From Schwartzia succinivorans DSM 10502 (GTDB lineage Bacteria > Bacillota > Negativicutes > Selenomonadales > Selenomonadaceae): DNA of 64,000 bases. This document shows positions 11,859 through 14,891 of the stretch, piece after piece (the stretch's first letter is position 1; every line of letters begins with the position of its first letter). A model generated the notes under the pieces. The model did no database searches and had not been told where the DNA came from. It saw nothing but the letters and a program-made list of their open reading frames with translations. The stretch spans positions 1 through 64,000 of the forward strand of contig NZ_FQUG01000003.1 in NCBI RefSeq assembly GCF_900129225.1, given 5' to 3'. Position numbers and translations under genes: made by a program.

Positions 11859-11897
11859 CTCCGTATCTGCAGATTTATGCGGATACGGAGCTTTTTT
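11859..11897. terminator. Terminator shared by convergent folB and the ATPase-like gene
   Basis: A 13-bp stem with one G-U pair (11859-11871 and 11878-11890) is followed by CTTTTTT on the + strand and a T-rich tract on the - strand. It lies between two convergent stops. Confidence 0.8.
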
Positions 11898-11907
11898 ATG
11901 CTTATTG

Positions 11908-13776
11908 TCAATCGTATATGAGACGAAGGGCATTGATGAGACATGCGAAGAAGCCCGGAATGGATGCGAGAAGCGCAATTGGCGGAGAAAGTACAGGGCC
12001 TCCGAAGCTGTAAGCTATGCCTGAAGCCACCGGAAGCGCAAGAACTGTTCCGATTGCGGCCCAGATATAGTTTTGGCGTGTGAGCTTCTCAACTTTTCTT
12101 CCAAGGGTGAAGAAGGGCGCGAGAGGAGCAAGCCCCGGATGAGAAAGTGTTATTTGGGCAGATTTTGCGGCTTCGGCGGATGTTCCGCCGGGGGCAATAA
12201 CATAATCTGACTGGGCTGCGGCCGCATCGTTTTCATGCTTGAGTGTGTCCAAAAGTGCGACGTTTTTTCCCTGCGCCTGAAGAAGCTGAATCTCCTTTGC
12301 ACGGTCATTGTGGTGGCAGGCAGCCTTGTATTCGGTGATTCCAAGCTCCTGCGCCAGTGCTTTCGCTGTGCGTGCGCTGTCGCTTGTCATGAGAACCGGT
12401 TCTATTCCCGCGTTTTGAAGCTTTTTTATCATCTTTTTTACTTCGGGCTGAGGTTCGTTTGCGAATGCGATGAGTCCCTTGGCAAACTGGTTGCTGCTTA
12501 CAAATACTACCGTTTTGCCTTTGCTTTCAAGCTGATCCGCCCGTGTTTGAAGCTCCGCGCTGATACGGACTCCCTGCTTTTGAATCCAGTCCCCGCGCCC
12601 GACTCTGAGAGAGGCTCCGCCGGCAAGTGCTTCAACTCCGCAGCCCGGCACCTCTGTTCTTGCAGATGAGCGCAGCATACGCGCGTGAAGTCTCAGGGCA
12701 CGGTCGTTTATAGCCAACGCAATAGGATGATAGGAATCAGCTTCTGCGGTTGCCGCGAGGGAAAAGAAGGTGGCATCAGTAAGTCCTTCGGCAAGAAAAT
12801 CGGTAATGTGTATTTTTTTGCGGTCAAGGAGGATGCTGCGCCCGATGACAAGTGTATTTATTTCTGATGCTTTACGGATGGCATCCTGGCTGTTGATACG
12901 GATGCCGCTTGATAGAATCGTATTTGCGGCGATGCACTGCGGCAGAGTACGGCAGAGTGCAATCGCACCCGGGCAGGCTATGATTAAAATTCCCGAGGCA
13001 ACAGCAAGAACATCAGAAACAGGCGCGCCGAGGAAATAAAGAACGAGGGCACCTGCAAGAGCGAGGAGCACAGCAGCTACGGCTGCCATACCTGTGACGG
13101 TAGAGGCAGGAGGCAGCGTTTCTTCGGGCTGCGGGATTTTTGATTCCTTTGGTGCGTCTTCAGTAGGAACTTGTTTTTCAACAGGCTCGTCAGTGTGTTT
13201 ATCAGGTGCTGCGTTCGAAGGAGGCTCGAAGTGAAAGCCTTTTTCTGAGGAGGACTGATTTTTTCCCGCGGTGGAATCGGATACAGCTTTAACCGGGGCT
13301 GTCTGTGCCTGAAGCATGTCAAACTCAGCACGGGCTTCAGCATAAAGACCTAAGTCAGTAAGGGCAAGTGTGAAGCCGACAACAGGAAAAAACGAAAGCG
13401 AGTGCGCTGATGCAGTCTGTGACATGAGAACGAATAAGCTGTACGCAAAGCCTCCAAGGGTGCTTACAGATATAAGGGAGTCCATGTCGGGGGCTGAGCG
13501 TAAAAGCTGCCTGATACCTCTAAGATATATGTCGAGGTTCAGAAGAATTAAAAACCCGGTGAGCAGGGCACCCAGATAAGGAAATTCATTTGCAAAAGGG
13601 GTTCCTTCGGGAATAAGCTGTACTCCGAAGGAAATGCAGAGTACTGCGGCTGTATGGAGGCCGAGACCTGCGGTAAGAATAATGGCTGCCGCAAGTCTTG
13701 CACCGGCAAGCCCGGAGCGCCGCTGCGCTGTTACACGCGGATTCTCCGGTGAGTCATTTCTATCATGCAGTGTCAT
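11908..13776 (-). CDS. P-type-ATPase-like membrane protein lacking catalytic residues (pseudoenzyme)
   Basis: A 622-residue intact ORF with the layout of a P1B (CopA-like) metal ATPase but without its chemistry. Membrane helices lie near 28-52, 65-87, 98-118, 126-146, 219-249 and 254-278, with two more near 570-620. The metal motif CPC is CPG (268-270). The phosphorylation motif DKTGT is replaced by LVIGRSILLDR near 309-319, with Gly where the Asp belongs. TGD is TSD (464-466) and GDGxND is DTLKHEND. The TGE actuator domain is absent; a Pro/Glu-rich linker at about 155-220 takes its place. The HP motif (SYHPIALAI) remains. Transport activity is unlikely; a binding or regulatory role is a guess. 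Confidence 0.8.
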   Translation of the reverse strand: MTLHDRNDSPENPRVTAQRRSGLAGARLAAAIILTAGLGLHTAAVLCISFGVQLIPEGTPFANEFPYLGALLTGFLILLNLDIYLRGIRQLLRSAPDMDSLISVSTLGGFAYSLFVLMSQTASAHSLSFFPVVGFTLALTDLGLYAEARAEFDMLQAQTAPVKAVSDSTAGKNQSSSEKGFHFEPPSNAAPDKHTDEPVEKQVPTEDAPKESKIPQPEETLPPASTVTGMAAVAAVLLALAGALVLYFLGAPVSDVLAVASGILIIACPGAIALCRTLPQCIAANTILSSGIRINSQDAIRKASEINTLVIGRSILLDRKKIHITDFLAEGLTDATFFSLAATAEADSYHPIALAINDRALRLHARMLRSSARTEVPGCGVEALAGGASLRVGRGDWIQKQGVRISAELQTRADQLESKGKTVVFVSSNQFAKGLIAFANEPQPEVKKMIKKLQNAGIEPVLMTSDSARTAKALAQELGITEYKAACHHNDRAKEIQLLQAQGKNVALLDTLKHENDAAAAQSDYVIAPGGTSAEAAKSAQITLSHPGLAPLAPFFTLGRKVEKLTRQNYIWAAIGTVLALPVASGIAYSFGGPVLSPPIALLASIPGFFACLINALRLIYD

Positions 13777-13810: not shown

Positions 13811-13840
13811 ATTATGTACCGATTTAAGGGGGGTTGTCAA
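13811..13840 (-). promoter_or_regulatory. Promoter of the ATPase-like gene (minus strand)
   Basis: On the minus strand TTGACA (13835-13840) and CATAAT (13811-13816) are 18 bp apart. An AAAGGAG ribosome site precedes the ATG at 13776. Strong signals argue that the pseudoenzyme is expressed. Confidence 0.65.
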
Positions 13841-13948: not shown

Positions 13949-14021
13949 TGATGCTGGCCGTTTGTCAGGAATTTCACAGCAGTGATGATTTTTTTCAGTC
14001 CATAAAAAGGAAGTGTGTAAC

Positions 14022-14891
14022 ATGATAACAGTGACGGCGAATGCTAAAATCAATCTTGCCTTGGATGTTCTCGGTAAACGCAAGGACGGATATCACGAGG
14101 TAAAGCTCGTGATGCAGAGTATTGGTCTTGCGGATACGATTTGGATGGAACCAAAGCCCTGTGGTATTGAACTTGAGGTTGATTCGCCGGAGCTGCCCGC
14201 GGATGAGTCGAATCTGGCGTATAAGGCTGCACGCATTTTTTTGGATGAACATAGCATGCAGCATGGTGTATCAATTGCTGTGAAGAAGAAAATTCCCATG
14301 GGAGCAGGGCTTGCGGGAGGTTCAGCTGACGCGGCCGCGGTCCTTTTGGGAATGGATAAGCTTTTCGGAACGCGTATGACGCAGGACGACTTTATGAGAA
14401 TGGCAGCGAAGCTTGGCTCGGATGTGCCGTTTTGTGTTATCGGAGGGACTATGCTTGCGGAGGGCCGGGGCGAATGTCTGACAGAGCTTCCGGAGCTTCC
14501 TTCCTGCTGGGTTGTTCTTGCGAAGCCGGATGTCAGCGTTTCGACTGCATGGGCGTATAATGCCTTCGACGATGAAAAGGACGTTGTCCATCCGGATATT
14601 GATGGGCTGCAGCAGGCGCTGAAGGATGGCGATATGCAGAAGGTGCTTTCAAATATCGGGAATGTTCTGGAACCAATCGCAGTCAGAGAGTATCCGGTAA
14701 TCGGTGATTATCTTGCACAGATGGAAAAGCATGGTGCACAGGCATGCCGTATGACCGGAAGCGGTTCTGCGGTATTCGGCATATTCAAATCGCAGGTGGA
14801 AGCCGAATCGGCTGCTGCGGCACTGAGAGGTCTGGCATCTGAGGTATTTGCAGTTCCGGTAAAGAGAAAAGCATGCATTATTGAATGCTGA
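14022..14891 (+). CDS. ispE: 4-diphosphocytidyl-2-C-methyl-D-erythritol kinase
   Basis: A 289-residue GHMP kinase of the MEP isoprenoid pathway. It has AKINLALDVLGKRKDGYHE at the N-terminus, the ATP loop PMGAGLAGGSADAAA near 93-107, and the C-terminal MTGSGSAVFGIF motif. ATG 14022 is chosen over GTG 14013 because AAAGGAAG overlaps the latter. Its pathway partners ispD and ispF lie at the far end of the window. Confidence 0.95.
   Translation: MITVTANAKINLALDVLGKRKDGYHEVKLVMQSIGLADTIWMEPKPCGIELEVDSPELPADESNLAYKAARIFLDEHSMQHGVSIAVKKKIPMGAGLAGGSADAAAVLLGMDKLFGTRMTQDDFMRMAAKLGSDVPFCVIGGTMLAEGRGECLTELPELPSCWVVLAKPDVSVSTAWAYNAFDDEKDVVHPDIDGLQQALKDGDMQKVLSNIGNVLEPIAVREYPVIGDYLAQMEKHGAQACRMTGSGSAVFGIFKSQVEAESAAAALRGLASEVFAVPVKRKACIIEC

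Follow-up and report, generated by a model that had tools for sequence, protein, structure and literature searches.

A degenerate CopA-like ATPase family in the Selenomonadaceae: a candidate membrane-anchored, nucleotide-binding pseudoenzyme

Active P1B-type pumps carry the phosphorylated Asp of a DKTGT motif, a CPC, SPC or TPC metal site, the TGE motif of the actuator (A) domain and the TGD and GDGxND motifs, besides the HP and GxG motifs of the N domain and the helices that flank the P and N domains. Soluble archaeal proteins of the MJ0968 type (P-type ATPase/HAD proteins) consist of a P+N unit, lack a complete transport domain and keep the catalytic Asp. For ATP7B, NMR places the equivalents of the GxG motif and of a later Gly near ATP, a direct role of the His being disputed (PMC3203118). 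Pseudokinases are well known, but among the open-access papers searched we found no bacterial family of stand-alone P-type ATPase pseudoenzymes.

The gene studied here lies in a stretch of 64,000 nucleotides (the window; contig NZ_FQUG01000003.1, positions 1 to 64,000) of Schwartzia succinivorans DSM 10502. The original prediction, made from the letters alone, had read it as an uninterrupted frame of 622 residues, and the frame is indeed exact, with an ATG start and no internal stop. The protein is a P1B homologue by its match to NCBIfam TIGR01525 (E 3e-51), and its closest solved structure is Legionella CopA (3rfu, 1e-40). It nevertheless stays under the curated NCBIfam cut-offs (174.8 versus 346 bits for TIGR01525, 153.2 versus 397 bits for TIGR01511), where the canonical protein of genome G016 scores 642 and 607, and it only just exceeds the threshold of TIGR01494, the broad superfamily model (62.9 versus 62.3). 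Pfam recognised the HAD hydrolase part only and gave no match to PF00122 (actuator). The gene, its parts and its context are as follows.

11908..13776, minus strand: gene of the degenerate P1B (CopA-like) ATPase, 622 aa (ORF, profile matches, orthologues)
13811..13840, minus strand: promoter-like TTGACA-18-CATAAT (consensus match only)
13300..13740, minus strand: first four predicted helices, residues 13-159, MA, MB, M1 and M2 of P1B (AlphaFold2)
13102..13284, minus strand: disordered Pro/Glu-rich linker, residues 165-225, at the place of the A domain (pLDDT, no PF00122, alignment)
12910..13101, minus strand: helices M3-M4, residues 226-289 (AlphaFold2)
12967..12975, minus strand: CPG (268-270) replacing the metal-binding CPC (motif table)
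12829..12843, minus strand: GRSIL (312-316) replacing DKTGT, Asp to Gly (alignment, motif table)
12454..12819, minus strand: intact N domain, residues 320-441, with E345, H350-P351, G378-x-G380, G393 and G420 (retention, superposition)
12145..12453, minus strand: C-terminal segment of the P (HAD) domain, which carries TSD (464-466) and the broken GDGxND (motifs, AlphaFold2)
11914..12123, minus strand: final pair of membrane helices, M5-M6, residues 552-621 (AlphaFold2)
14013..14891, plus strand: ispE, which lies divergently next to the gene and identifies the slot from genus to genus (synteny)

At the phosphorylation site TLVIGRSILLD replaces LDKTGTIT, with Gly312 in the position of the Asp; the M4 metal site reads ACPG instead of ACPC, and in the P domain MTSD stands for LTGD and DTLKHENDAA for GDGINDAPAL. 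The HP motif is present as SYHP, and among the features of active pumps listed above the HP and GxG motifs and the flanking helices are the ones that the window protein retains. The readings of the altered motifs and of HP had been made beforehand and agree with the motif table, although the wording that all catalytic motifs are lost was slightly strong, for the losses are real but TSD still has its D and GDGxND its ND. Of the promoter and terminator described as good, the promoter-like site is there, matching the consensus at 11 of 12 positions; the sole terminator-like hairpin (11859-11890) has its T-tract on the opposite strand.

The AlphaFold2 model of the window protein, built with 47 sequences, has a pLDDT of 87.5 and the helix layout of a P1B ATPase, with a whole-protein Z of 34.4 against LpCopA (3rfu), in line with the CopA-like membrane layout proposed earlier. 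Residues of about 165-225, at the place of the A domain, are disordered (pLDDT mostly below 60), which together with the missing PF00122 match confirms that in this protein a Pro/Glu-rich linker has replaced that domain. The predicted P+N part aligns structurally with nucleotide-bound AfCopA (AMPPCP or ADP), at 1.9 A for 264-270 residues (Z 27.3 against the AMPPCP-bound 3a1c), and a short family member from G027 was also modelled confidently (pLDDT 90.4). A shared fold alone is no proof of function.

To describe the family, 60 relatives were searched, which gave degenerate forms in most genera of the window's GTDB family, and a profile search over the 189 available genomes of that family, many of them metagenome-assembled, extended this; a search at the level of the order gave the identical 189 genomes. 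We extracted and aligned 94 degenerate orthologues, from 23 of the 30 genera of the Selenomonadaceae, and outside this family, the matches in 23 genomes of the class were of full-length size, except for a 432-aa open frame in G058. The degenerate clade holds three architectures. Genus g6 has a full-length dead form that keeps the A domain, with TGE changed to TGK, TGD, TGS or TGI and the phosphorylated Asp changed to Gly or Ala, and the A domain is thus not missing in all members. In the window protein and in those of g7, g14, g12, g20, g29, g30 and g5 the A domain is absent but the first helices are kept, and in the remaining genera (about 380-485 aa) the A domain and the first four helices are both gone. 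The protein of G020 (L072:8844-10784) is the sole degenerate member with an Asp, in DRSGT, and has neither A domain nor GDGxND; some g13 members lack the HP motif (e.g. AENVLG) yet are intact. In G029 a single in-frame TAG divides the copy (L082:8930-10687) into parts of 415 and 166 aa, which makes it a pseudogene, a sequencing error or a case of recoding. The gene beside ispE is missing in g8, g11 and g22 genomes and in two g13 genomes, and tblastn found no gene remnants beside ispE in the genomes that lack it; the sole matches in that search, in G202, come from an over-long predicted start that extends into ispE.

The family is under purifying selection along the whole gene. Among 109 pairs of degenerate members (dS 0.05-1.5), pairs that are not independent of each other, the Nei-Gojobori dN/dS ranged from 0.036 to 0.231 with a median of 0.122, not near 1, and the canonical pair G010-G161 gave 0.052. 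These values speak for the family rather than for the window gene by itself, whose one congeneric genome has a completeness of 63% and a contig that stops near ispE. In the close pairs that were computed, the lowest ratio usually fell in 100 residues of the N domain. The catalytic Asp is present in one of the 94 degenerate members (4% when weighted by genus), and by the same weighting the second Cys of CPC is retained in 7%, its Pro in 90% and the Gly of GDG in 10%. The ATP pocket, in G016 numbering, keeps E470 in 97%, H475 in 93%, P476 in 83% and the glycines G503, G505, G518 and G545 in 82%, 100%, 100% and 100%. Sites invariant in canonical proteins are kept for 73% in the N domain versus 27-43% elsewhere; the best-kept part of the protein is the N domain, ATP-contact residues included. 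On this sequence evidence the protein can be classed as a probable pseudoenzyme, i.e. an enzyme homologue with its catalytic residues lost and, at the level of the family, under selection; the orthologues, the dN/dS values and the structure prediction all support the earlier idea that selection maintains a P-type ATPase pseudoenzyme.

In most loci the dead gene lies divergent from ispE-gntR-glmU-prs. Canonical CopA relatives, with DKTGT and TGE intact, were found in four genera with csoR and/or copZ adjoining, and the canonical sequences that we read have their motifs intact. Two occupy the ispE slot, in G024 (csoR, canonical CopA, copZ and cydABCD) and in G016 (csoR and canonical CopA); those of G010, G161 and G023 are near csoR or copZ but elsewhere or at contig ends. 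From these arrangements we infer that the ancestor of the family was a working pump. Beside the dead genes csoR and copZ are otherwise absent, the exception being a copZ that adjoins the g6 form in G094, and in g22 cydA adjoins ispE. Orthologues with DKTGT and TGE had been named beforehand as the sign of a decaying ordinary ATPase; they do exist, but as the outgroup from which the dead clade arose, and their existence is no evidence of recent decay.

Two further features of the neighbourhood were observed. In seven g7 loci (including L063, L064, L069, L073 and L076) the dead gene abuts or overlaps rqcH (NFACT family), which suggests co-transcription, in g7 only among the loci read. In several genera a conserved protein of about 234 aa (cluster 9) is encoded beside the gene or after cydABCD (e.g. 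L072:18104-18811, L078:17763-18500 and neighbours in L143 and L149).

In the maximum likelihood tree all degenerate members form one clade (UFBoot 98) with the canonical genes as nearest outgroups; with g5 and g21 added, FastTree supports the clade at 0.685. The gene's own tree thus favours a single loss of catalysis. Two or more independent losses, with long-branch attraction drawing the dead forms into one clade, would be in line with the tree of ispE, gntR, glmU and prs, in which the canonical G016 and G024 group with g6 (the rooting being uncertain). This reading is disfavoured by the AU test, which rejected five alternatives to monophyly of the dead forms (p<0.001).

When the other CopA of the window genome (843 aa, HMA domains at both ends) was used as query, 99 of 99 near-complete genomes had a match at 1e-120. 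The comparison rests on the near-complete genomes, and where these carry the dead form a separate CopA is present as well. In the canonical-gene genomes G010, G016, G023, G024, G095 and G161 a single CopA lies above the cut-offs, and its scores agree with its being the canonical gene. The window genome also encodes, outside the window (L003, G000:C15:116575-120090), a heavy-metal ATPase with FSCGLK for CPC and DKTGT intact.

We therefore propose, with a probability of about 0.6, that a redundant CopA was turned into a membrane-anchored, probably nucleotide-binding and non-pumping pseudoenzyme. An ancestral csoR-copA-copZ pump beside ispE would have lost catalysis, probably through redundancy with a second CopA of about 850 aa, and the metal site and the neighbouring genes for the CsoR regulator and the CopZ chaperone would have gone next. 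The A domain would have been lost later, and one branch would also have lost the first four helices, leaving a membrane-anchored P+N unit. Judged from the residues and the model, this unit may bind ATP or ADP while neither phosphorylating itself nor transporting metal, and it could act by contacting, in a nucleotide-dependent manner, some other protein of the membrane or the cytoplasm. Some g13 members have lost HP, so that nucleotide binding may not extend to the whole family. That a copper ATPase became a membrane-tethered sensor or regulator responding to nucleotide (the energy state), with each step surviving in living genera, is a tentative idea to which we give slightly less than even odds. 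A metal sensor or chaperone, suggested as possible in the original prediction, is not supported, because the CPC cysteines, the HMA domain and the adjoining csoR and copZ (save the copZ in G094) are lost, and metal sensing by the dead protein is unlikely.

Several other readings fit part of the data. The N domain could be a folded scaffold for protein interaction, in which the ATP-contact residues are kept only for stability of the fold; the g13 members that stay intact without HP are in line with this, as is the conservation of residues outside the pocket (the Glu of VEA, DQ and the Arg of RVG) to the same degree as those within. Yet the E, H, GxG and G of the pocket are among the most conserved residues over 23 genera and the GDG glycines of the P domain are lost, and we consider such a scaffold unlikely. 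A regulatory partner (a heteromeric subunit or a decoy) that tunes the true CopA, a partner role having been named as possible in the original prediction, would explain why near-complete dead-form genomes have a separate CopA and why the canonical form occurs where one CopA passed the cut-off, but redundancy alone gives the identical pattern. The other CopA is moreover present without the dead form in g8, g11, g22, G013 and G114, half of the transport helices are missing in the short forms, and to our knowledge P1B pumps do not need a second subunit, which makes a partner of this kind quite improbable.

The position of the gene directly upstream of cydABCD in many genera, with cydA in the same direction 61-458 nt downstream in ten fetched loci, could mean that the protein assists cytochrome bd oxidase as an accessory or assembly factor. 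However, the linkage is older than the loss of catalysis, as it is found with the canonical csoR-copA-copZ-cydABCD of G024, and the conserved neighbours of the dead gene are inherited. Genomes of g8, g11 and g22 carry cydA without the dead gene, and dependence on cytochrome bd is unlikely because genomes without detectable cydA (e.g. the near-complete G014, G012, G029, G005, G021 and G166) keep the gene; this distribution rules out an obligate partner, and any role in the oxidase seems to us very improbable. An ordinary ATPase in decay, a pseudogene in progress, would be consistent with the canonical relatives in the same slot, with the outright loss of the gene in a few genera and with the in-frame TAG of G029. 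It is hardly credible in view of the low dN/dS, which rules out decay of the family, the intact frames with shared losses in 23 genera, and the long and short forms (window, G027) that both fold at high confidence in AlphaFold2. The reading of a nucleotide-binding pseudoenzyme derived from a redundant pump remains the one that we prefer.

Living genera still contain the canonical relatives, the full-length dead intermediate and both stages of domain loss, and the conversion of a transporter into something else can therefore be traced step by step. The eroded catalytic centre versus the intact nucleotide pocket leads to a direct prediction of nucleotide binding. For annotation, weak P-type ATPase matches in Selenomonas and its relatives should not be named metal transporters.

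Compared with the known systems, the window protein shares with the CopA (P1B-1) Cu(I)-ATPases (LpCopA 3rfu, AfCopA 3a1c) the helix layout, the P and N folds and the HP and GxG motifs, and the dead family appears to descend from a csoR-copA-copZ locus; unlike CopA, it lacks the phosphorylatable Asp, the CPC, the A domain with its TGE and the HMA domain. Unlike the MJ0968-type proteins, the family keeps membrane helices and loses the Asp. The P4-ATPase-like domain of Plasmodium guanylate cyclase beta (PMC6592433) is of the P4 type, eukaryotic and fused to a cyclase, and is not a stand-alone family. As far as the cited accounts go, pseudokinases and other pseudoenzymes (PMC5106787, PMC8141879) differ from the dead family in fold and resemble it in that catalytic residues are lost, the fold is kept and a role in regulation or scaffolding is inferred.
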